Below, in pieces: positions 9,724-57,979 of a stretch of DNA of 57,979 bases. The notes beneath the pieces are model-generated. The model searched no databases. It was not told the origin of the DNA and saw nothing but the letters and a program-made list of their open reading frames with translations. Every line of letters begins with the position of its first letter. Position 1 is the stretch's first letter. The stretch is taken from IMG/VR virus record IMGVR_UViG_3300029988_000010, positions 1 to 57,979 of that record; one strand, given 5' to 3'. The stretch is from a virus. Made by a program: the position numbers and the translations under genes.

Positions 9724-9770
9724 CCCAAGGCCTCAAGCACCCCGGCGAAGGCCGGGGGATAGGCCTTGGG
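9724..9770. repeat. Two-stem hairpin element A1
   Basis: Outer stem CCCAAGGCCT (9724-9733) pairs with AGGCCTTGGG (9761-9770). Between them lie CAAGCA, an inner stem CCCCGGC/GCCGGGG closed by GAAG, and GAT. It is followed by ACAAAAATG on the plus strand. It lies upstream of the PLD-like gene on the transcribed strand. The inner stem differs completely from other copies but stays paired. Confidence 0.85.
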
Positions 9771-9785
9771 ACAAAAATGTAAGGG

Positions 9786-14035: not shown

Positions 14036-14059
14036 GGAGAAGCCCACCATAGACAGGGG

Positions 14060-14095
14060 CCCAGGCCCTCAAGTAGCGAAGCGGTAGGGCCTGGG
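14060..14095. repeat. Two-stem hairpin element A2
   Basis: Outer stem CCCAGGCCCT (14060-14069) / AGGGCCTGGG (14086-14095), internal CAAGTA, mini-hairpin GCGAAGC, then GGT. It lies 24 bases upstream of the tip protein start and shares the flank ACAAAAA with elements A1 and A3. Confidence 0.9.
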
Positions 14096-14110
14096 ACAAA
14101 AACACAGGGG

Positions 14111-14146
14111 CCCAAGGCCTCAAGCAGCGAAGCGGTAGGCCTTGGG
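14111..14146. repeat. Two-stem hairpin element A3
   Basis: Outer stem CCCAAGGCCT (14111-14120) / AGGCCTTGGG (14137-14146), internal CAAGCA, GCGAAGC, GGT. It is a near-tandem neighbour of A2, but the outer stem differs at paired positions, so the duplex is kept by compensatory change. Confidence 0.9.
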
Positions 14147-14158
14147 ACAAAAATGAGA

Positions 14159-20405: not shown

Positions 20406-20834
20406 CTAGCGCGCGTATTTGTTTGAGTGTTTCGCCCGGTGCTCGGACATCTTGTGGTTCGCACCGTCGATCATTTCGGGGTGATCGATCGACTGGGTGA
20501 CGATCTTGCCGAAGCTGCCGGTGACCACACCGGCCTTGTCGGTGATCAGGATCAGGTCGCTGGACAGGTCGAGGTTGCCGAGCCGCGCCAGGACGCCCAG
20601 CAGGGCGCGCCGGTTGGCGCGGATGTCCCGCACGTTGTCGCAGGCGATCGGCGCTTGCCGATCGAGCACCCGGTGGCCGCAGATCTTGCGGCCCACATGG
20701 CGGCGGATGTGATCGACCTCCAGCTGCGAGAGCTGGAAATCGGCCATGATCTGCTCGACCGGCACGCCGTTGGCCAGGTTCTGAAACACCAGCCGCCGCA
20801 TCCGGCCGAGCGCTCGGCGATCGTCTTCGGTCAT
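20406..20834 (-). CDS. HTH-like protein in the tail gene cluster
   Basis: 142 residues from ATG at 20832-20834 (MTEDDRRALGRMRRLVFQNL). The segment PVEQIMADFQLSQLEVDHIR looks like a helix-turn-helix (sigma-4/response-regulator type). The rest is mixed, with LILITDKAGVVTGSFGKI in the second half. A DNA-binding-like protein between tail tube and chaperone genes is unusual; it may be a minor tail assembly factor with a misleading HTH resemblance. Three hairpin elements sit upstream. Confidence 0.55.
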   Translation of the reverse strand: MTEDDRRALGRMRRLVFQNLANGVPVEQIMADFQLSQLEVDHIRRHVGRKICGHRVLDRQAPIACDNVRDIRANRRALLGVLARLGNLDLSSDLILITDKAGVVTGSFGKIVTQSIDHPEMIDGANHKMSEHRAKHSNKYAR

Positions 20835-20842
20835 ATTTTCCT

Positions 20843-20877
20843 GCCCTATCGCTCGCTGGCGCTCGCTGCTTGAGGGC
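20843..20877. repeat. Two-stem hairpin element B1 (reverse orientation)
   Basis: Outer stem GCCCT (20843-20847) / AGGGC (20873-20877). Read on the minus strand: CAAGCA, then GCGAGC-GCCA-GCGAGC, then GAT. The inner hairpin has GC pairs separated by a tandem GA/GA step, which can form sheared pairs. Its edge is 8 bases upstream of the HTH-like gene start. Confidence 0.75.
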
Positions 20878-20885
20878 GTATTTGC

Positions 20886-20924
20886 GCGCCCTAGCGACTG
20901 CTTGCGCTCGCTGCTTGAGAGCGC
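20886..20924. repeat. Two-stem hairpin element B2 (reverse, divergent)
   Basis: Outer stem GCGCCCT (20886-20892) / AGAGCGC (20918-20924) with one mismatch. On the minus strand CAAGCA is intact and the inner stem is GCGA...TCGC. The G(G/A)T side is degenerate. Confidence 0.6.
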
Positions 20925-20926
20925 AT

Positions 20927-20962
20927 GGCGCGGACTCAAGCAGCGAAGCGGTAGTCCGCGCC
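20927..20962. repeat. Two-stem hairpin element A4
   Basis: Outer stem GGCGCGGACT (20927-20936) / AGTCCGCGCC (20953-20962), a perfect 10-bp duplex unlike other copies, around CAAGCA, GCGAAGC and GGT. With B1 and B2 it fills the whole gap downstream of the tail tube gene. Confidence 0.9.
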
Positions 20963-20969
20963 TTGAAGG

Positions 20970-22067: not shown

Positions 22068-22112
22068 CGTGAGGTTCCCTGGCTTCGCGCCACATCAGCG
22101 CGGTGAAAATCC

Positions 22113-22150
22113 GCGCTCAAGCAGCGCGCACGGCGTGCGCGCGTTAGCGC
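22113..22150. repeat. Two-stem hairpin element A5 with palindrome inner stem
   Basis: Outer stem GCGCT (22113-22117) / AGCGC (22146-22150), CAAGCA, inner stem GCGCGCACG/CGTGCGCGC, then GTT. This copy links the two repeat families: the GCGCACGGCGTGCGC palindrome (22126-22140) is here the inner hairpin of the two-stem element. Confidence 0.88.
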
Positions 22151-22171
22151 CACGCAAAAACTCGCTTCCCG

Positions 22172-27975: not shown

Positions 27976-29130
27976 CTATCGCCACACCCCGCCCGGGGCG
28001 CCCTGGTTCTGCCAGTCGGTCATCGACTGGTAGAAGACCTCGAGGTTGATGTCGGGCCAGCGGACCATCAGCTCGGCGTGGCCGATGGCGACGCGGTTGG
28101 CGAGGTAGAGGCTGTTGCCGGCCTCGCGCCACTTACGCCAGAAGGCGATGTCCTCATCGACGTGGCCGTCGTTCCAGGTGCCGTCGGGCGCCGGGGTTGA
28201 ATGGAACCAGGGCTTGGGCAGCTGCCGCAGCTTTTCGGTGCGGATCAGGGTCAGGCCGAAGTGGGCGGTGGCCACCGGCTGCAGGTCCGGCTCGAAATCG
28301 GCGCGCGACAGGGTCGGGGCGTTGTCGCCCTCCGGCCCCTCGACGGTGAACAGCGCCGTCTCCAGGTGGCGCGAGGACTGGATCGGCGCGATCGCGTCGG
28401 CCTCCGGGTGCAGCATCATCAGCTGCATCAGCTGCGCCACGTGGGCCGGCGAGAAGATCGAGTCGTAGTCCAGGGTCAGGATCGCATCGGGGTTGTCTTC
28501 CTCGATGATCCGCTCGAACACCTTGGTCAGCGACTGGCCCCAGAAGGCCCCGCCGTGCTTGCGGAACTTGACCTGGCACGGCACCATCGCCTCGATGGCG
28601 CAGAAAAGGTTGTCCATGAAGCCGAGGCGCGGCACGCTCATGGCGCCCGAGACGACGATCTCCGACACGAACGGCTTGTGGGCCTCCAGGTTCAGGGAAA
28701 TGTCGAGGTCGGCGCAGTCGCCGAGCTCGGATCGCCAGGGCCGGATGATGACCAGGCCTTGAGCCGCCAGCAGCTTGCGCAGGGTGTCACGGTCGAACAG
28801 GGCCTTGTGGAAGTCGTCGGCGTCGGTCTGGCCGCCCAGCAGCCAGCCCTGGTGCGGGGCGGGGTGGCCCTCCAGGTAGGATTGGGCGATCTTGGCGAAG
28901 TCCGGCACGGCGATGCGCAGACGACCGCCCTTTTTCAGGGCGCGGGTCCAGTCCTGAAGCACCGCCGCGACCTGGCCATGCGGGAAATGCTCCAGCACAT
29001 GGCTGGCGTAGATCTCGTCGACGGTCTCGTCGGCATAGGGCAGCGGGTAGATTTCCGAGCCGTGGTCGTGGCCCAAGGGCGTGAAGCCAGGCGCGGACGT
29101 GGGGCCGGCGCCGAGGTCGAGTTTAAGCAT
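27976..29130 (-). CDS. Fused SAM methyltransferase and glycosyltransferase-like protein
   Basis: 384 residues from ATG at 29128-29130. Residues 1-160 form a class I methyltransferase: LDLGAGPTS (SAM loop), EIYASHVLEHFPHGQ and KKGGRLRIAVPDF. From about residue 190 a GT-A-like nucleotide-diphospho-sugar fold follows (FMDNLFCAIEAMVPCQ, DAILTLDYDSIFSP with a D-x-D, and HVDEDIAFWRKWREAG). The longer upstream frame only reads through tandem hairpins and is not used. It may modify surface glycan or a virion protein. Confidence 0.75.
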   Translation of the reverse strand: MLKLDLGAGPTSAPGFTPLGHDHGSEIYPLPYADETVDEIYASHVLEHFPHGQVAAVLQDWTRALKKGGRLRIAVPDFAKIAQSYLEGHPAPHQGWLLGGQTDADDFHKALFDRDTLRKLLAAQGLVIIRPWRSELGDCADLDISLNLEAHKPFVSEIVVSGAMSVPRLGFMDNLFCAIEAMVPCQVKFRKHGGAFWGQSLTKVFERIIEEDNPDAILTLDYDSIFSPAHVAQLMQLMMLHPEADAIAPIQSSRHLETALFTVEGPEGDNAPTLSRADFEPDLQPVATAHFGLTLIRTEKLRQLPKPWFHSTPAPDGTWNDGHVDEDIAFWRKWREAGNSLYLANRVAIGHAELMVRWPDINLEVFYQSMTDWQNQGAPGGVWR

Positions 29131-29157
29131 GTCGGGGAAGTTCCTCTGTCGGGAGGC

Positions 29158-29259
29158 GCGCTCAAGCAGCGCGAAGCGCGGTAGCGCGGGGATGCGCTCA
29201 AGCAGCGCGAAGCGCGGTAGCGCGGGGATGCGCTCAAGCAGCGCGAAGCGCGGTAGCGC
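29158..29259. repeat. Three tandem 36-bp two-stem hairpin elements
   Basis: Copies start at 29158, 29194 and 29230. Each has outer stem GCGCT/AGCGC, CAAGCA, inner hairpin GCGC-GAA-GCGC and GGT, and the first two are followed by the spacer GGGGAT. The inner stem is four pairs, longer than GCGAAGC, still closed on GAA. They lie 27 bases upstream of the methyltransferase-glycosyltransferase start. Confidence 0.92.
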
Positions 29260-29276
29260 AAAAAGGATGGGGGTCG

Positions 29277-29306
29277 ATGGGGACCGGACCGACACCCGGT
29301 CCCCAT
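29277..29306. repeat. Perfect 11-bp inverted repeat with competing partner
   Basis: ATGGGGACCGG (29277-29287) pairs with CCGGTCCCCAT (29296-29306). A second, overlapping option pairs CCGGACCGACACCCGG with the downstream CCGGGTGTCGGCCCGG (about 29330-29345). Mutually exclusive hairpins are possible. No proper T-run follows on the minus strand. Confidence 0.5.
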
Positions 29307-30326: not shown

Positions 30327-30359
30327 GGATGGGGTTGGAAAAGGAGGGCGAACCAGGGG

Positions 30360-30395
30360 CCCAAGCCCTCAAGCAGCGAAGCGATAGGGCTTGGG
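30360..30395. repeat. Two-stem hairpin element A6
   Basis: Outer stem CCCAAGCCCT (30360-30369) / AGGGCTTGGG (30386-30395) around CAAGCA, GCGAAGC and GAT. Compared with A2 and A3 the outer stem again differs on both sides in matching positions. It ends 11 bases from the capsid stop codon. Confidence 0.9.
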
Positions 30396-30406
30396 ACAGA
30401 GACTCC

Positions 30407-31720
30407 TTACGGGCTTTTCGCGGCGACCAGCGGACCGGCGGCGGTCGTCGAGCCGAGGTCGTGGTTGTTGATGTCGAAGCGCTCGGTGCCCAGCAGGCCG
30501 ATCTGGTCGTTCTCGAAGTAGCGGTGATCGGACCGACGGATGGTCACGCCGCGGCGCTCGCCCATGGCCGAGGACTTGGCCAGGTCGCCGAAGTAGAACA
30601 TCGGAAGGCCCGAGCCGGGGGTGACGATCGGCAGCTGTTGACTGATCACGACCGGGAAGCCGAGCAGGCGCGGCGTCAGCGGATCGGCCAGGGTGAGGGT
30701 GGTGTTGCCGCCGGCCTTGGCCAGGACGGTGCCGACAGCGGAATAGAACATCTGCTGGCTCATGTACCACTTGGCGCTCTTGATCGCGTATTGCGGCAGC
30801 ACGCCCATGACGCCGGTGAAGTCGGCCACCGTCAGCGAGGTCAGCGATGCCGAGGAGGTCTGGTACTGGCCAGCGGTATGAGTACCGTCGCCGAACAGGG
30901 TGCTCAGCCCGCGAATGCCGCCGTAGGACGATGTGCCGTCCCCACTGAAGCCGGAGGCGTCCTCCTTGGCCGCGAAGGCGTAGGCGATTTCTCCCACCAG
31001 CCAGTCGGCGATCGAGACGACCGCATCCTCGGCGATTTCGTTGGACATCCGGGTCAGGGCGCCCAGCTTCTTGGCGGTCAGGTTGATGGCGTCCCACTGG
31101 GCCTGGGACTCGGTCGTCGCCTGGTTTTCACCAGTGAAGTAGGCGGTCAGGCCACCGACGCGGCGGGGCCAGTTCAGGGTGTCGCTGCCCATCGGGATGA
31201 CGGTGCATTCCTTGCGGAACACGCCGAATTCTTCGCGAAGCACGATGATGTTGGCGAGCAGCTCTTCCGGAACCAGGAAGCCACCGGCGCTATCGACGCC
31301 TTCGCCCTGAGCCTTGGTCAGCGGCACGCCGCGCGATTTGCACCAGTCGATCGCCTCGGCGTTGCCGAAGATCGTCGCCTTGAACCACATGCCGGCGGTG
31401 TAGGCCTGGTCGACGGCGCGGACGGTCTGGCCGCCGATCTCGCGGTCCTTGAAGTTCTTCAAGGAGCCGTACAGCTTGTGGGCGCTGGCGGGCGCCGAGG
31501 GGGTCAGCCGGTCCTGGCCCGCCACCGGGGTGGCGAGGCTGGCGGCGACCTTTTCGGCCTCCTCGACGCGGCCGAGCTGCAGCTGCAGATCGGCGATCTT
31601 CTCCTTCAGGGCGTCATAGACGTCCTGCTTGAACCCATCGGCTTCGGACTTGCCGGCCATGGACTCCAGTTCGTCCGCGGCCTTGCTCAGCTGCTGCCGC
31701 AGTTCGTGCTTCTTCGCCAT
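30407..31720 (-). CDS. HK97-fold major capsid protein with N-terminal scaffold (delta) domain
   Basis: 437 residues. Residues 1-75 are a coiled-coil scaffold (MAKKHELRQQLSKAADELES...), then a linker, then the HK97 core: GVDSAGGFLVPEELLANIIV, LTAKKLGALTRMSNEIAEDA, FSGDGTSSYGGIRGL, and GERRGVTIRRSDHRYFENDQ. HK97 proteases normally remove such a delta domain. The ribosome site GGAG is 9 bases before the ATG, in a leader shared with the tail tube gene, which suggests strong expression. A paralogue lies at 33441-34487. Confidence 0.92.
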   Translation of the reverse strand: MAKKHELRQQLSKAADELESMAGKSEADGFKQDVYDALKEKIADLQLQLGRVEEAEKVAASLATPVAGQDRLTPSAPASAHKLYGSLKNFKDREIGGQTVRAVDQAYTAGMWFKATIFGNAEAIDWCKSRGVPLTKAQGEGVDSAGGFLVPEELLANIIVLREEFGVFRKECTVIPMGSDTLNWPRRVGGLTAYFTGENQATTESQAQWDAINLTAKKLGALTRMSNEIAEDAVVSIADWLVGEIAYAFAAKEDASGFSGDGTSSYGGIRGLSTLFGDGTHTAGQYQTSSASLTSLTVADFTGVMGVLPQYAIKSAKWYMSQQMFYSAVGTVLAKAGGNTTLTLADPLTPRLLGFPVVISQQLPIVTPGSGLPMFYFGDLAKSSAMGERRGVTIRRSDHRYFENDQIGLLGTERFDINNHDLGSTTAAGPLVAAKSP

Positions 31721-31884: not shown

Positions 31885-33324
31885 TCAGTCGTTGCTCGGC
31901 AGCGAGGCCTTGAGCTCGCGGGCTTCTTTCAGCCGGCGCTGCTCGGGGGTCATGTCGTCGGGAATGACCGTGGCTTCCGGCTCGGCGGGGAGGCTGTCGG
32001 ACGGCGCCGGTTCGTCGGGGGGCATTTCCTCGTCGTCGGCGAGGATGGACTTGATGCACTCTGCCGCGGCGGCGTGGCTGTCCATCGCCTGCTGGTGCAG
32101 GTCCAGGGCCTTCACCAGCGTTTCCTTCGTCGCCGCCGAAATGCGACGGCCGGCCTTGGCGCGGAGCGCGGCTTTGGCGGCGGGGCTCATCCGCGCCTCA
32201 TAGTGGTCGAGAACGGTGCGCACGCTGGTCTTGACGCCGTCGGGAATGTCCGTATCCGGCAGCCGCGAGGCGGCGGCGCGCAGGCCGCCAGCGTCAGCCT
32301 TTAGCACGTCGCCGTGCAGATGGGCGAAGGGCAGCTTGTAGGACCCGCGCAGCTTCGGCGCGGATGCGTCGTAGGCCAGGAAACCCTTGCGGGCGATGGC
32401 CGGGTCGAAATCAGCGCCCCCGGCATGCTCAAAGATCGACGCGGCGGCGGCAGGACCATCCCAGCTGTCGCCGGACTCATCCAGCGGCAGATCCGTGGCC
32501 GCGGCGCACTTCCAGTCCGCAGCGTCGTCGCCCGCGGCGCGGAGCACGAAGCGGTCGTCGATGACCAGGGCCTCGGTTGGGTCCTGAAGCCAGCGCTTCA
32601 GTCCATCGCGGGCCCGTTCGGCCGCTTCCGCGCTGATAGTCCCCTTGGCCTGCAGATAATAGCGCGTCGGCGCCGTTCCCTTGGCCTGGGTGCGAAGGGC
32701 TTCCAGATCCTTGCGGGGCAGGAACACGGTATCGCCGTTGTCCAGCACCTTTTCCGCCCATTCCACCAGCGGCCAGGTGTCGACGCCCAGGCTGCGCGCC
32801 TCGCCAAGGGCGTTGGGGTTGCAGGGCACCGGGCAGACCGAGATTTCCAGCAGGGTCTGTTTCTTGAAGTCGATGCCGTAGGGGCGGTTCTTGTCGGCGC
32901 TGAAGGCCCATTCCTTCGGCAGGAAGCCGACGGAGACGGCGTTCATGAACTTGCCCTTCAGCAGCCGGTAGATGGTGTCGGCGAAGGGGTAGATGTCGGC
33001 GCTGGCGAATTCGATGTCGCCGACCAGCTTGTCGCCTTCCACGGCCACGTAGGGGCTCCGGCCGATCGGCGGCTCCCAGCTCATGTGGCTGAACAGCGCG
33101 ACCGGGTTGCGCTTGAAGAGGCTGGTGTCCCAGCCCTTGGGATCGATGCTGTCGTCGGAGTGGTCGACAGTGGCGTCGCTGAAGACGAAGCGCATGGTGC
33201 GGGCGTCTTCAGCGCCCTGCTGCTGGGGTTCAGTCGTGGAGAACCGGAACACGGTCCCATCCGGACGTTGGCCATCCTTGGCCGCGGCGCGGAAGTCGTC
33301 CGTGGAGAGGAGCTTCATGGGCAT
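31885..33324 (-). CDS. Prohead protease with long C-terminal extension
   Basis: 479 residues. The HK97-type (U35) protease occupies residues ~1-210: NPVALFSHMSWEPPIGRS with the catalytic His, AVSVGFLPKEW with the catalytic Ser, and ISVCPVPCNPNA at the domain end. After a middle linker, residues ~265-375 form a second domain (SYKLPFAHLHGDVLKADAGG, DIPDGVKTSVRTVLDHYEAR) that I recognise as recurrent in phage head proteins. The C-terminus is charged and may act as scaffold. It lies between two capsid genes, one of which encodes the cleavable scaffold. Confidence 0.85.
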   Translation of the reverse strand: MPMKLLSTDDFRAAAKDGQRPDGTVFRFSTTEPQQQGAEDARTMRFVFSDATVDHSDDSIDPKGWDTSLFKRNPVALFSHMSWEPPIGRSPYVAVEGDKLVGDIEFASADIYPFADTIYRLLKGKFMNAVSVGFLPKEWAFSADKNRPYGIDFKKQTLLEISVCPVPCNPNALGEARSLGVDTWPLVEWAEKVLDNGDTVFLPRKDLEALRTQAKGTAPTRYYLQAKGTISAEAAERARDGLKRWLQDPTEALVIDDRFVLRAAGDDAADWKCAAATDLPLDESGDSWDGPAAAASIFEHAGGADFDPAIARKGFLAYDASAPKLRGSYKLPFAHLHGDVLKADAGGLRAAASRLPDTDIPDGVKTSVRTVLDHYEARMSPAAKAALRAKAGRRISAATKETLVKALDLHQQAMDSHAAAAECIKSILADDEEMPPDEPAPSDSLPAEPEATVIPDDMTPEQRRLKEARELKASLPSND

Positions 33325-33345
33325 GGCGACCCTTATCCTTACGTT

Positions 33346-33381
33346 GCGCTACCGCGCGCCAGAGGCGCGCTGCTTGAGCGC
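33346..33381. repeat. Two-stem hairpin element B6 (reverse)
   Basis: Outer stem GCGCT (33346-33350) / AGCGC (33377-33381). On the minus strand: CAAGCA, inner stem GCGCGCC-TCT-GGCGCGC, then GGT. It is 21 bases upstream of the protease start. Confidence 0.85.
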
Positions 33382-33391
33382 GTTTTACGTT

Positions 33392-33440: not shown

Positions 33441-34487
33441 TTAGGGCGCGACCAGGACGGCGAGGCTGCCGTTGTTGGTGTTGTCGCCCATGTCGTGGAT
33501 GACGGCGTCGAAACGCTCGGTGGCGAGGATCGCGAGCTGGTCCTCGATCATATAGCGGTCCTCGCTGCGGGCGATGGTCAGGCCGCGGCGCTGGCCGAGG
33601 ACGGCGGCGGCGTACATGTCGCCGAAAGCCATCATCGGCAGCCCGGAAGTCACCGTGGCGGAGAGCGGGAGCGCCTGGGTCAACACGACCGGGAAGCCGT
33701 TGAAATAGGGGGTGGCGATGTTGTCGAGCGGACCGGTGTAAAGGTAGCCGCCGGCATTCGCGAGACGGATCACGGTCTGGGCGAAGGCCGTGACACTCAT
33801 GAACCAGGCCGCGCGGGGGATGGCCGAGGCGCGGACGCCTTCCACGAGCCTGGCCATGTCGCCGGCCTGCAGGGAGCCGAACGCGTCCGCGCTCGCCGCC
33901 TGCCGGGCTTGGCCGTGAGCGCCGTCGTTGGCGATCGTTCCGATGCCCTTCATGCCGCCATACGCCGAGGTGCCGTCGCCGCTGAAGGCGCATTGATCCT
34001 CTTTCACGGCCAACGCCCAAGCCAGTTCGTTGGCGACGTAGTCGACCATGTCGACGATCGAGTCCTCGGCCAGCTCGTTCGAAAGGCGCACCAGGGCGCC
34101 AAGCTTCTTCGCGGTGAGCTTGACCTCGTCCATATTGGTGTTGGTGTTCGCCGCGGGGCTGTTTTCGGCGAAGAAGAAGGCCTGGGCCGCGCCGATGCGG
34201 CGCGGGAAAGACGACGAGTCCGAGCCCATCGGCCACTTACAGGCGCGCCGCCGGAAGGCGCCGTAGCTGTCGCGCAAGTCGAGGATGGCGTTTTCGAGCG
34301 CCTCGGGGACCAGGAAGCCGCCGCCGGAGCCAATGCCTTCGGACGCGGCCTTGACGATCGCCACGCCCTTCTTGTCGCACCAGTCGCGCGAGGCCTTACG
34401 GCCGTAGACCGTGGCCAACAGCCATTTGCCGGCACGCTCGTAGCGCGCCTCGACATCCGGACCGAAGCCTGGAAATGCTCGCCTCAT
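33441..34487 (-). CDS. Second HK97-fold major capsid protein (no scaffold domain)
   Basis: 348 residues. It aligns with the other capsid protein over the core: EGIGSGGGFLVPEALENAIL, LTAKKLGALVRLSNELAEDS, FSGDGTSAYGGMKGIGTI, LGQRRGLTIARSEDRYMIED. It lacks the N-terminal coiled coil and starts almost at the N-arm. It lies directly after the portal gene, before the protease, with ribosome site AGGA 9 bases upstream. It may be a minor capsid subunit, a capsomer of a mixed shell, or an older copy kept beside a newer one. Confidence 0.88.
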   Translation of the reverse strand: MRRAFPGFGPDVEARYERAGKWLLATVYGRKASRDWCDKKGVAIVKAASEGIGSGGGFLVPEALENAILDLRDSYGAFRRRACKWPMGSDSSSFPRRIGAAQAFFFAENSPAANTNTNMDEVKLTAKKLGALVRLSNELAEDSIVDMVDYVANELAWALAVKEDQCAFSGDGTSAYGGMKGIGTIANDGAHGQARQAASADAFGSLQAGDMARLVEGVRASAIPRAAWFMSVTAFAQTVIRLANAGGYLYTGPLDNIATPYFNGFPVVLTQALPLSATVTSGLPMMAFGDMYAAAVLGQRRGLTIARSEDRYMIEDQLAILATERFDAVIHDMGDNTNNGSLAVLVAP

Positions 34488-35853: not shown

Positions 35854-37683
35854 TTAGACAAAAAGAAGGCCGTGCTCCTCGTAGGCGGAACGGACCGCTT
35901 CGGGGTTGGTGGCCATGATGGTCACGGCGTTGAACAGGGCCATCGCGGGGTCGATCTTGGCGTCGCCGGCGTTCTGCTTGGTCGCGCGGATCGCCGTGGC
36001 GGTCGGCTCGATTTTCAAATTGCCGATGCACCAGTCCATCAGCGCCTGGTCGGCGTGGCGGAGCGTGCCGTTGGTCAGCTTCCGCTCGGCGGTTTTCAGC
36101 GCGTTCATCATGGCGTAGCCCTGGGCGGCGCCAATGACGTAGTCGCGACCGGTTTCCTTGTTTTCCTCGACGATGCCGACCTCGGCCAGGGCGTCGATCA
36201 GCTCGCCGAGCCCGGCGGGGTCAACCGCGACGCAACAGAGGATGCCGGCGTCGCGGATCTGGACAATCAGGTCGATAATCTCGGCCAGGTCGATGTTTTC
36301 GATGACACCGTCGAGTTCGTCGAGATCGGTGGACAGTTCGCCGCCAACTTCAGGCGCGCCCTGGAAGGTCAGCTCGCCGGCCCGTTCAAAATCCTCAAGA
36401 AGGCTGGCGATGGTCTGGCGCCGCGACAGCACGATCCGGTGCGCCCAGGCGTGCGACCAGGATAGCCAGCGCTTGACGCGTTTCTTTGTCCCAAGGCCTA
36501 TCGCTTCGCCGCTTGAAACGTCCGGCGCCGCGCCAGCGGGGGCATCGGCAGCGATCTCGACCTCGATCGACTCGCGGCCGAGGACGGTCATGCCGTAGAG
36601 GTCGTCGCGGCCGCCGCCGTCCAGGCCGACCACGACCACTTCGCAGCGATCGAGGATGTCGGCCAGGGTGAGCCGCACCTTGGTGCGCTTCCAGAAATCG
36701 GCGCCGACCCAGTTGTCCGACCGGGCGCCCATGCCCGGCTCCACGTTCAGATGCTTGGCGAAGAAGCCCACCAGGGACTTGGAGCCTTCGCGCTGGGCCT
36801 TGGCGTATTCGTCGAGCAGGAATTCCTTGTCGACCGACAGGCCGAGGTTGGGGTTGGTGACGTAGAAGTTCTCGGGCTTCTTGTAGGCGCCCGATTTGAT
36901 CATGTCCTCCGGGAATTCGTAGAGGACGCCGAGGGAGCGTGGGGCGATCAGCTTGCCGTCGCGGATGTCGCGGAACCGGCGTAGCCAGTCGAGGAAGACG
37001 CCCGCCGGCGGGTCGTCGCTCTGGGTTGAGAGGGCGATCACGAAGCCTTCGGGGCGGCTGGCCAAGCCGCCGGTCGCTTCGCGGAGCATGTTGCGGGCGT
37101 TCGCGCGCCTTCCGAACAGCCACAACTCATCGATCAGGACGAATGAGGCCTTCTTGCCTGAGACGGTCTCGGAATCGGCGGCGACAACCTGGAGGGTCGC
37201 CTCGGTGATGCGGTGGGTGATCGTCCGGGTGTGGTCCTGGACCCGTAGAAGGTTCCGCAACTCCGGGTCCTCGGCGATCATATCCTTTGCCGGGCCGAAG
37301 CTGTTGTTCGCGACCTCTTTCGTCGGCGCCAGGATCAGCAGCTCGGCCGAGTGGCGCCAGTTGCGGATCAGGGCCGTCAGCATGATGCCGGCGGCGATGG
37401 TCGATTTGGAATTCTTCTTGCTGATCAGCAGGAAGAACTCGCGGATCAGGCGCCGCGCCGCCGTGGCGTCGTAGGCGCCGAAAATGGCGGCGACGAACTC
37501 GAAGACGAAGTCCTCGCAGGCGTCGCCGAAGGAGGGCTTGCCCGGCGCATCGACGATCTTCAGCGACTTGAAGACGTTGAGCGCGGCGGCGGCCTCGTCC
37601 GGAAAGATCGGCGGCGGGATCAGCGACTGCCGGGCGACGATCCGCTCGCGCCAGTCGAGGCAGGCGGTCGAGTGGGTTTGCAT
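35854..37683 (-). CDS. terL: Terminase large subunit
   Basis: 609 residues from ATG at 37681-37683; an upstream in-frame ATG lies inside a hairpin element and was not chosen. ATPase: deviant Walker A ISKKNSKST and Walker B FVLIDELW. Nuclease (RNase H fold): VVVGLDGGGRDD, CCVAVDPAG and DPAMALFNA supply acidic residues. Between the domains, SSGEAIGLGTK is encoded by a half copy of the hairpin element. Packages DNA into the prohead. Confidence 0.93.
   Translation of the reverse strand: MQTHSTACLDWRERIVARQSLIPPPIFPDEAAAALNVFKSLKIVDAPGKPSFGDACEDFVFEFVAAIFGAYDATAARRLIREFFLLISKKNSKSTIAAGIMLTALIRNWRHSAELLILAPTKEVANNSFGPAKDMIAEDPELRNLLRVQDHTRTITHRITEATLQVVAADSETVSGKKASFVLIDELWLFGRRANARNMLREATGGLASRPEGFVIALSTQSDDPPAGVFLDWLRRFRDIRDGKLIAPRSLGVLYEFPEDMIKSGAYKKPENFYVTNPNLGLSVDKEFLLDEYAKAQREGSKSLVGFFAKHLNVEPGMGARSDNWVGADFWKRTKVRLTLADILDRCEVVVVGLDGGGRDDLYGMTVLGRESIEVEIAADAPAGAAPDVSSGEAIGLGTKKRVKRWLSWSHAWAHRIVLSRRQTIASLLEDFERAGELTFQGAPEVGGELSTDLDELDGVIENIDLAEIIDLIVQIRDAGILCCVAVDPAGLGELIDALAEVGIVEENKETGRDYVIGAAQGYAMMNALKTAERKLTNGTLRHADQALMDWCIGNLKIEPTATAIRATKQNAGDAKIDPAMALFNAVTIMATNPEAVRSAYEEHGLLFV
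36484..36516. repeat. Half copy of the hairpin element inside terL
   Basis: On the minus strand the 29 bases ending GGCCTTGGGAC match element A3 at 27 of 29 positions: TCAAGC, GCGAAGCG, then TAGGCCTTGGGAC, followed by AAAG. The 5' outer arm is missing. It is read in frame as SSGEAIGLGT. Confidence 0.85.
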
Positions 37684-37687
37684 CAGC

Positions 37688-37713
37688 GGCCTCAAGCAGC
37701 GAAGCGACGGGCC
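37688..37713. repeat. Two-stem hairpin element A7 (short outer stem)
   Basis: GGCC (37688-37691) / GGCC (37710-37713) enclose T, CAAGCA, GCGAAGC and GACG. It fills the gap between terS and terL, 4 bases upstream of the terL start. Confidence 0.75.
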
Positions 37714-37718
37714 GGAGG

Positions 37719-38195
37719 TTAGTTGAACAGCTTGGGCGCTTCAGGCGGCGCGAACTTGCCGCCGGCGGCGACCACGTTCTCGGCCTCTTCCTGGCGCGCT
37801 TCCTTCTTGCCCATCCTGATCGCCGCCGGCGCGCGCGGTGCGTTTTGCTCTCGCGCCTTCAGGGCCGCCGAGGCGCCCTGTTTGTCGATCTCCGCCTTGT
37901 AGGCCTTGATCGCTGAGACGTTCCCCTTGCGCGCCGCGTGGGCCAGCAACTCGATCGCCTCGGCCTTGCGCAGGGTCGGCCCCTCGGTCAGCTCCGATCC
38001 AAAATATTTCACCAGCGTGGGGACACTGATCCGAAGGACGACCGCAATCTCCTCCTGGCTCATATTCCCCGCGCGTAAATCCCTAACCCTTTCATAGACT
38101 TCCTCGGCGAACACCAGCTTACGTCGGCCCCGCTTGCTCGGAAGGTCCCGCAGCGGCAGCCCGAACAAGTCTTTCGGCTCGGAAATTTCGGTCAT
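37719..38195 (-). CDS. terS: Terminase small subunit
   Basis: 158 residues from ATG at 38193-38195 (MTEISEPKDLFGLPLRDLPS). A helix-turn-helix (YERVRDLRAGNMSQEEIAVV, LRISVPTLVKYFGSEL) would bind the packaging site, followed by helical oligomerisation segments and a basic, Ala-rich tail. It sits before terL, as usual. Other starts further upstream are possible, since no clear ribosome site is seen. Confidence 0.8.
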   Translation of the reverse strand: MTEISEPKDLFGLPLRDLPSKRGRRKLVFAEEVYERVRDLRAGNMSQEEIAVVLRISVPTLVKYFGSELTEGPTLRKAEAIELLAHAARKGNVSAIKAYKAEIDKQGASAALKAREQNAPRAPAAIRMGKKEARQEEAENVVAAGGKFAPPEAPKLFN

Positions 38196-38253
38196 GTCGA
38201 AAAAATCTGCGCGTGCGATCCATCGCGGTTGGCGGCGCGGGATGAGGTTGGAG

Positions 38254-38301: not shown

Positions 38302-38628
38302 TCAGCGCCTTGCGGCGCGGGCGACGGCGGTCTTGGCGGTGTGGTGGGAGCCGCAGAGGCACTGGCCATTCATGGGGTCGAAGGGCGCGCCGCCATCGCG
38401 GCGTTCGATGATGTGGTCGGCGAACATGCGGGCGCCGGGTTCGCGCTTCCAGCAGCGTTTGCCGTTGTCGATCGCTTCACAGCGGCGACCGCCGCGGGCG
38501 ATCACCGCCTCGCGCCACTCGGCATATTCAGCCGTCGAGAAGATGTCGTCGGCGACCTTGGGTGGCGTGGCGACGCGGCGGCTATTGAACGTGCCGAGGC
38601 TGGACCGGAAGGTCGAGAGTTTCGCCAT
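38302..38628 (-). CDS. HNH endonuclease
   Basis: 108 residues from ATG at 38626-38628 (MAKLSTFRSSLGTFNSRRVA). The HNH core reads RCEAIDNGKRC, then FADHIIERRDGGAPFDPMNG, then QCLCGSHHTAKT, with the Cys pairs of a zinc site and the His-Asn-His residues. HNH enzymes beside terminase genes assist DNA cleavage during packaging in several phages. The longer upstream frame lacks family similarity. Confidence 0.85.
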   Translation of the reverse strand: MAKLSTFRSSLGTFNSRRVATPPKVADDIFSTAEYAEWREAVIARGGRRCEAIDNGKRCWKREPGARMFADHIIERRDGGAPFDPMNGQCLCGSHHTAKTAVARAARR

Positions 38629-38813
38629 CGGTGAACCACAGCTTCGCACTTGAGACCCGGCGTCTTGCCCGGTATCTCGGGGATCGGCCTGCCCGCTGGG
38701 CACGTATTCCGAGAGCGCATTCGCTCGCAGCCGGTCGTCCCGCCGCATCAGCGGCATTGACCGCAGAGAAGCGGACGATTCGCCCAACGCCGCAAGACGC
38801 CATGTAAGATCGT
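38629..38813. other. Gap between NusG-like and HNH genes (possible late promoter or antitermination site)
   Basis: 185 bases without a convincing ORF. On the minus strand short hairpins are visible (GAGCGAATGCGCTC, and CCCGAGATACCGGG). Its position between the antiterminator gene and the late operon suits a late promoter or an antitermination loading site, but no promoter match is clear. Confidence 0.35.
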
Positions 38814-57304: not shown

Positions 57305-57979
57305 ATGTCCAGTTCAACCACCATCAGCCTCGCCGACGTCACCCCGGAAATCGCCGCCGATAGCATCATGGCCTTCGCCCGCGAGGGCCGTTTGGTCCAA
57401 GGCCGATGGCACGGCCGGGGCGGCGGCGACGACGGAGCGGGCCGCGAGATCGCTTGCCTGCTCGGCTCGATCCATCCCGATATTAACGGGACCGGCGACT
57501 GCCCCGCATCGCTGATGCCGCGCTGGATGGCGCACCTGACCGTGCGCCTGTTCGACGGCGTTCCAGCGGCCACCGTGCGTCACTACGGCGAGGCCTACGC
57601 CACACGCATGCATCGCTGGGGCGCTCTCGATGGCGCCGGCTGGGAGCGCATCCGCAAGGCCTTCATCAGCGAGGTCATGTCCGGCGCGATGAAGCGCGCC
57701 GAGGAATTGGCGAAGGGCCACACGTCGCCACTGCTGACCGAGATCCGCACGGTCACCGACGAACTGCTGGCGATGCTCATGGGCGGTGTCGCGACTTGGT
57801 CAGAATACCGCGCCCTTCGAGATCGCGCCGCCAAACTGCGCTCAAAGGCCTGGACGGAATACCACGCCGCGCGCTCTCGCGCGGAGGTGGCGGCGGCGGC
57901 GGCGGTGGCGGCGGTGGCGGTGGTGGCGGCGGTGGAGGTGGCGGCGGTGGAGGTGGTGGCGGCGGCGGAGGTGGCGGCG
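57305..57979 (+). CDS. N-terminal part of the junction-spanning Ala/Val/Glu-rich protein
   Basis: ATG 57305 has an AAGGGAA ribosome site 5 bases upstream. The globular part (SLADVTPEIAADSIMAFARE, then GRWHGRGGGDDGAGREIACL, LGSIHPDINGTGDCPASLMP) fits phage proteins of unknown function with a helical, alanine-rich tail. From about residue 193 the sequence is Ala/Val/Glu only and runs off the window, continuing at base 3. The complete protein is about 289 residues if the left-end repeat length is right. Confidence 0.78.
   Translation, partial: MSSSTTISLADVTPEIAADSIMAFAREGRLVQGRWHGRGGGDDGAGREIACLLGSIHPDINGTGDCPASLMPRWMAHLTVRLFDGVPAATVRHYGEAYATRMHRWGALDGAGWERIRKAFISEVMSGAMKRAEELAKGHTSPLLTEIRTVTDELLAMLMGGVATWSEYRALRDRAAKLRSKAWTEYHAARSRAEVAAAAAVAAVAVVAAVEVAAVEVVAAAEVAA
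57840..57965. repeat. Terminal direct overlap, right copy
   Basis: Identical to bases 1-126. The last 14 bases (57966-57979) no longer match position for position, because the GGN units are arranged differently. Confidence 0.85.

Follow-up and report, generated by a model that had tools for sequence, protein, structure and literature searches.

A gene for the terminase large subunit (terL) in a phage genome from IMG/VR contains a short segment that closely resembles palindromic repeats lying between other genes of the same genome, which raises the question of how a repeat came to stand in frame inside the gene for a packaging motor. The window, i.e., the whole stretch of DNA analysed here, comprises the 57,979 nucleotides of record IMGVR_UViG_3300029988_000010. 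Very probably, the terL segment derives from a short mobile palindrome that occupies the intergenic gaps of this phage, and is a decayed copy with one arm left. The terL product contains both Pfam domains of an HK97-type terminase, TerL_ATPase and TerL_nuclease, with conserved motifs intact, and matches terminase large subunit families in PHROGs; its nearest solved protein, both by profile and by fold, is the HK97 TerL (6z6d). A nucleotide search with terL gave no credible match among isolate phages. The reading frame is intact, and the same allele can be found in three more contigs from separate samples (L001-L003), which excludes an assembly error.

Read on the minus strand from position 36516, the segment is TCAAGCGGCGAAGCGATAGGCCTTGGGACAAAGAAAC. 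A sequence-only reading had reported 27 of 29 bases in common with the intergenic copy A3, and the resemblance is in fact slightly longer. Without gaps, positions 36516-36483 share 31 of 34 bases with the copy at 30353-30402 (A3), and positions 36516-36485 share 30 of 32 with the copy at 14104-14153. The second-best position within terL reaches 17-18 of 32, and simulation of the whole window by 40 first-order Markov copies, which keep its dinucleotide content, yields no match better than 23 of 32. Thus, the observed 30 of 32 is not due to chance. The segment is also found, at 36484-36524 (32.1 bits, E 3.5e-7), by a covariance model built for this family, although the terL copy and some other copies in the window had been used to train it. 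The half copy codes for SSGEAIGLGTK, as had been proposed, which corresponds to residues 390-400 counted from the ATG at 37683. It is also evident that one outer arm is missing, again as first noticed from the letters: terL has CCGGACGTT where the intergenic copies have the 5′ arm CCCAAGGCC.

The terL copy starts exactly at the core (TCAAG) and ends in an A-run beside native AAGAA codons. In its 3′ arm and tail, GATAGGCCTTGGGACAAA, it does not differ from the 3′ half of the copy at 9725, and no single intergenic copy is identical to the whole of it. Hairpin folding is lost in the terL copy (z +0.55 for RNA and +0.78 for DNA), in comparison with z −3.9 and −4.5 for the intact copy at 14104. The arm-specific pattern GCGAAGCGRTAGGSCYTGGGAC was found in five viral stretches only, all of which have sequences of this phage's repeat loci, and in none of 289 alphaproteobacterial genomes. 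Since the 3′ arm and tail are confined to this phage population, the comparison points to the phage's own intergenic copies as the most likely source of the terL copy.

Table 1. The terL gene and copies of the palindromic repeat in the window
Feature	Position	Strand	Remarks
terL, HK97-type terminase large subunit	35854..37683	−	609 aa, ATG at 37683; Pfam, PHROG, fold
One-armed palindromic repeat copy in terL	36483..36516	−	core TCAAGCGGCGAAGCGATAG, 3′ arm GGCCTTGGGAC, A-rich tail
Intergenic copy A2, long arms, A-run tail	14104..14153	+	nearest whole match of the terL copy; hairpin z −3.9
Intergenic copy A1	14053..14102	+	tandem, 51 nt upstream of A2; model hit
Intergenic copy A3	30353..30402	+	repeat listing, terL comparison, model hit
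Fourth copy with A-type arms, longer inner stem	9725..9776	+	model hit, 24.1 bits
Short-armed copy	37684..37724	+	between upstream gene (37719-38201, terS position) and terL start codon, opposite orientation
Tandem array of three copies, period 36 nt	29154..29270	+	repeat family D7
Cluster of three copies	20832..20968	both	model hits
Copy with long inner stem	22109..22161	+	model hit
Copy immediately upstream of a start codon	23351..23400	−	model hit
Copy with long inner stem, between head genes	33335..33385	−	model hit

At least 13 copies in the window are found by the covariance model at E <1e-4 (Table 1). Common to them are TCAAGC[AG]GCG, CG[AG]TAG and, in between, an inner hairpin that varies in length; complementary arms lie outside. 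Long arms followed by the tail GGGACA and then A or AG are present in four of them (9725, 14053, 14104 and 30353). The tandem copies at 29154-29270 overlap, in another frame, a long ORF on the minus strand (27976-29295) at its 5′ end, and the true start codon of this ORF may lie downstream of them.

The general layout of the repeat is arm3-C-TCAAGCAGCGAAGCGGTAG-arm3′, followed by an A-rich tail; one unit consists of 26 bp and about 10 nt of A-rich sequence downstream; tandem arrays have a period of 36 nt, equal to 12 codons. Across 206 different copies, taken from bacterial genomes as well as viral contigs, the three variable arm pairs are of Watson-Crick type in 194, 197 and 188 copies (91-96%), compared with 102, 80 and 134 (39-65%) expected from base make-up. 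Pairing ends beyond the three variable pairs outside the fixed C-G and T-A pairs. In an alignment of 48 copies, 99% of the cells are paired, the covariation score was reached by none of 500 shuffles, and sliding the partner cuts pairing to at most 57%. This comparison shows arms that covary and a repeat family that is real, with pairing under selection. No Rfam family matches the repeat; the sole hit is a chance miRNA match (E 0.23) elsewhere in the window. Neither the DNA core nor the peptide occurs in the open-access texts searched, and in this literature the family appears to be undescribed.

The repeat is patchily distributed and multicopy in alphaproteobacteria, and is also present in uncultivated phages. 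We have identified the 19-base core in viral contigs (83 stretches) and in bacterial genomes (at least 118 stretches), the latter mainly from Erythrobacteraceae, Caulobacterales and Rhodobacterales; a reversed control pattern was found in none of 30 genomes. When searched with the covariance model, 6 genomes out of 96 sampled across the class turned out to be carriers, as did 13 out of 40 belonging to a single family, and copy number ranges up to at least 56 per genome. Two genomes of the class sample (G195 and G197) are a 1.7 Mb alphaproteobacterial genome with at least 56 copies and one with about 20, mostly of a 55-nt long-stem variant. Furthermore, named plasmids of Asticcacaulis, Cereibacter and Rhodovulum carry the repeat outside annotated genes. 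The isolate phages in the collection show neither the repeat nor a credible nucleotide match.

Copies of the repeat can also be found in frame inside other genes. Many of them use the frame seen in terL and code for (A/P/R)SSSEAVG(Q/R)xK. The genes concerned are named NrdJ, TrmFO, CysS, GlyS, PutA, NuoG, RfbB, LeuA and PheS by NCBIfam, and lambda-type TerL, portal, terminase small subunit, primase and DNA methyltransferase by PHROGs. When scored strictly (a frame open for 150 nt on each side and with the best third-position GC), 16 of 21 in-gene copies use the terL frame, a number that includes the terL copy itself and four copies in PheS, the latter perhaps from one event; the other open frames are used by 2, 2 and 1 copies. 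In PheS of Erythrobacteraceae, the empty form has exactly 30 residues between fixed motifs in 20 of 33 loci, whereas the filled form has 42-44 residues, i.e., is 36-42 nt longer. Erythrobacteraceae PheS genes have one to four in-frame copies at one site, next to many empty relatives (L183, L230, L269, L274, L275 and L289-L317), and the PheS of L269 contains an array of four 36-nt units. Similarly, the lambda-type (GpA-like) TerL has a copy near the N terminus in at least two sub-clades (L327, L337 and L338, versus the empty L328-L335 and L341), and the genes of empty relatives, about 85-88% identical, are exactly 33 nt shorter than the filled ones. Phage portal proteins have a terminal tail that includes the repeat in frame (SSSEAVGDETPGDG) in five loci (L091, L100, L102, L107 and L276). 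The mobility that had been proposed from the terL match is supported for the family by the empty and filled sites in PheS and the lambda-type terminase, the nearest empty sites in both cases coming from other species. Site comparison of this kind shows that members of the family evidently become inserted, with the frame kept, in conserved genes of both alphaproteobacteria and phages.

The position of the segment in the terL product was examined with an AlphaFold2 model (mean pLDDT 86, pTM 0.60) based on an alignment of 41 terminases. SSGEAIGLGTK ends a loop between strands 363-378 and 400-415, which are the first two long strands of the nuclease fold and follow the conserved GLDGGG motif; residues 381-397 have pLDDT <50. 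According to the model, the segment belongs to the nuclease domain itself, where it fills a pre-existing variable and disordered β1-β2 hairpin loop; the sequence-only reading had placed it in the linker that separates ATPase and nuclease, which the model does not support, but the loop that the same reading expected is predicted. Among relatives 58-77% identical, the loop can be missing altogether (GRE-RGSRDWLSW) or have about 20-30 residues, and the linker of relatives overall varies from 0 to more than 30 residues. Relatives typically have APEEVQEPVNGKKRVKRWL, compared with APDVSSGEAIGLGTKKRVKRWL in the window TerL, in which the flanks of the loop, APE/D and KKR-VKRW, are native.

None of the TerL relatives that are 58-77% identical has the segment, and 24 of the 25 contigs carrying such relatives are free of any repeat copy, as predicted for phages that do not have the element; the exception, G119, has the repeat elsewhere. 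The residues of the segment are not conserved in these relatives, the loop residues of which are unrelated. The empty allele could have been shown by a relative more than 77% and less than 100% identical, but none was found. The linker EEVQEPVNG of relatives looks replaced by DVSSGEAIGLGT in the window TerL. The net gain in the loop is 3-7 residues, in comparison with 11-13 for a clean insertion, which implies that some native linker was replaced, whichever history applies. Of the original reading, a one-armed copy of intergenic type that is absent from relatives holds. The insertion or exchange proposed for terL itself has indirect support: with a linker that is already variable and a gain of 3-7 residues, replacement, or insertion plus deletion, is needed.

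How the copy reached terL could be explained in more than one way. Chance, or convergent coding in which selection on the loop yielded the same bases, is hardly conceivable: the match of 30 of 32 exceeds the simulated maximum of 23, the corresponding residues in relatives are unrelated, and a non-coding arm and tail that only this phage has are part of the match. A fixed regulatory RNA or terminator, with the terL copy acting as a regulatory hairpin in the mRNA, would agree with the good folding of intergenic copies (z −3.8 and −3.9), with their location between genes and often right before start codons, and with covariation, which means that pairing is selected. Nevertheless, it is very unlikely, given that the terL copy is unfolded (z +0.55), that no T-run lies 3′ of the hairpin on either strand, and that a fixed regulator would not be expected to occur patchily, to form tandem arrays or to stand in frame inside enzymes. 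Within terL itself, a regulatory hairpin is ruled out by folding. Movement as a REP by a RAYT, a Y1 tyrosine transposase for which GTAG would be the recognition tag, has in its favor a core that ends in GTAG or ATAG and a REP-like size and copy behavior (PMC3733652). This explanation is very unlikely because, of the 28 genomes in which exact copies are present, 24 have no Y1_Tnp, and some of these 24 have as many as 13 and 15 copies; moreover, the AG of the putative tag is part of the paired stem and the first G of the tag is variable (GTAG or ATAG), whereas a terminal tag would be unpaired. RAYT dependence was dismissed on this genome content (PF01797 missing in 24 of 28 carriers).

A further explanation is possible, at somewhat less than even chances: gene conversion or short-homology recombination may have patched the half from core to tail into terL, with no insertion of a mobile unit at that place. 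The exact extent of the copy, from the core to the A-run at native codons, would be expected of such a patch, as would a 5′ arm that is never seen at the terL site and a linker that is replaced instead of being extended by a full unit. The relative L007 also has GTTCAAG at the corresponding place, a possible homology. On the other hand, this TTCAAG homology is limited to one relative, clean insertions of 33-42 nt occur elsewhere, and a decayed full insert would look identical.

For the decayed copy of a mobile repeat that we favor, copying within the phage lineage most likely brought the sequence into terL, as shown by the arm and tail confined to this population. The landing site is the predicted disordered β1-β2 loop of the nuclease, which tolerates changes in length. 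Survival may be due to the open frame TCA AGC RGC GAA GCG RTA GGC, one of few in the repeat, which would give a short soluble SSxEA[VI]G peptide and leave the fold undisturbed; this frame also predominates in other genes. Either a whole repeat may have been inserted, with later loss of its 5′ arm and of some of the former linker, or short-homology recombination or template switching may have introduced only the part between the core and the A-rich tail. More generally, the repeats may spread as DNA units, and genic copies would persist where the SSSEAVG frame coincides with a surface loop or terminus. In these data, no mobilising gene for the repeat was found and no transposition event was observed.

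Short palindromes inside genes have precedents. Ogata and colleagues reportedly described the Rickettsia palindromic elements (RPEs) RPE-1 to RPE-8. RPEs occur in frame in conserved genes, including those of tRNA-related enzymes, and are also intergenic; elements of the RPE-1 type are longer than the present repeat. To our knowledge, RPEs are known from Rickettsia and not from phages. Like RPEs, the present repeat is a short palindrome that can be found in frame in protein genes with shorter empty homologs (PheS and lambda-type TerL) and in intergenic regions. Unlike RPEs, it is carried by Erythrobacteraceae, Caulobacterales, Rhodobacterales, others and phages, and its unit of 26 bp plus about 10 nt has a core, TCAAGCAGCGAAGCGRTAG, that is not known from RPEs, of which RPE-4 and RPE-6 are treated in PMC3733652.

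Intragenic palindromes known so far comprise RPEs and intragenic GTAG and CGTC REPs (PMC3733652). CGTC REPs, to which type RPE-4 and RPE-6 belong, are marked by a terminal CGTC, TGTC or CCTC tag and a CCA tail, with AT in the first positions of a stem of 8-9 bp (PMC3733652), and occur in tRNA synthetase genes of an Erythrobacter species (Di Nocera 2013, PMC3733652). The present repeat is similar to them in size class, in its alphaproteobacterial hosts and in having intragenic copies, including ones in tRNA synthetase genes. It differs in that its 206 copies show no such tag and no AT start, that its tail is A-rich instead of CCA, and that its variable stem is 3 bp closed by C-G and T-A, versus 8-9 bp. 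GTAG REPs are palindromes of 20-40 bp with an unpaired terminal GTAG beside a 6-13 bp stem (PMC3733652). The present repeat also falls in this range, has GTAG, the TAG of which can end flanking ORFs, and has intragenic copies. However, the AG of its GTAG pairs with a CT on the 5′ side and the first G varies to A; direct 36-nt tandem arrays are common, and most carriers have no Y1 transposase. Unlike an intrinsic terminator, the hairpin is followed 3′ by A-rich sequence, with a T-run 5′ on the other strand. On the whole, the family behaves as RPEs and intragenic REPs do, but it has no unpaired GTAG or CGTC tag and no CCA tail, and its unit is different from that of the RPEs.

In-frame palindromic repeats in essential genes have so far been regarded, for the most part, as a peculiarity of Rickettsia and as a footnote to REPs. 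An apparently undescribed family does likewise across alphaproteobacteria and their phages, and matched empty and filled genes are available in culturable Erythrobacteraceae. Two old questions become testable in this way: what moves such repeats, and how PheS and terminase tolerate a 12-residue insert. We tentatively suggest that these are undescribed mobile palindromes common to alphaproteobacterial chromosomes, plasmids and phages, which would be selected both for the hairpin and for a harmless SSSEAVG peptide, carried between hosts by phages, and moved by something other than RAYT. If so, dual selection lets the repeat spread into essential genes, phage packaging motors included. The terL copy also shows a phage spreading its own private sub-family into a motor gene.

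The window shows further features. An HNH endonuclease gene adjoins the terminase genes (38302-38787, minus strand). Two distinct ORFs match major head protein families, with a head maturation protease between them (30407-31720, 31885-33324 and 33441-34487, all minus strand), and the phage seems to have two capsid-like genes. The two ends of the window, 1-138 and 57840-57977, repeat each other with 97% identity over 138 nt, and this end repeat falls inside a GGC/GGT-rich repeat of glycine type. The genome thus seems to be circular or terminally redundant, with its closure in a region of low complexity.
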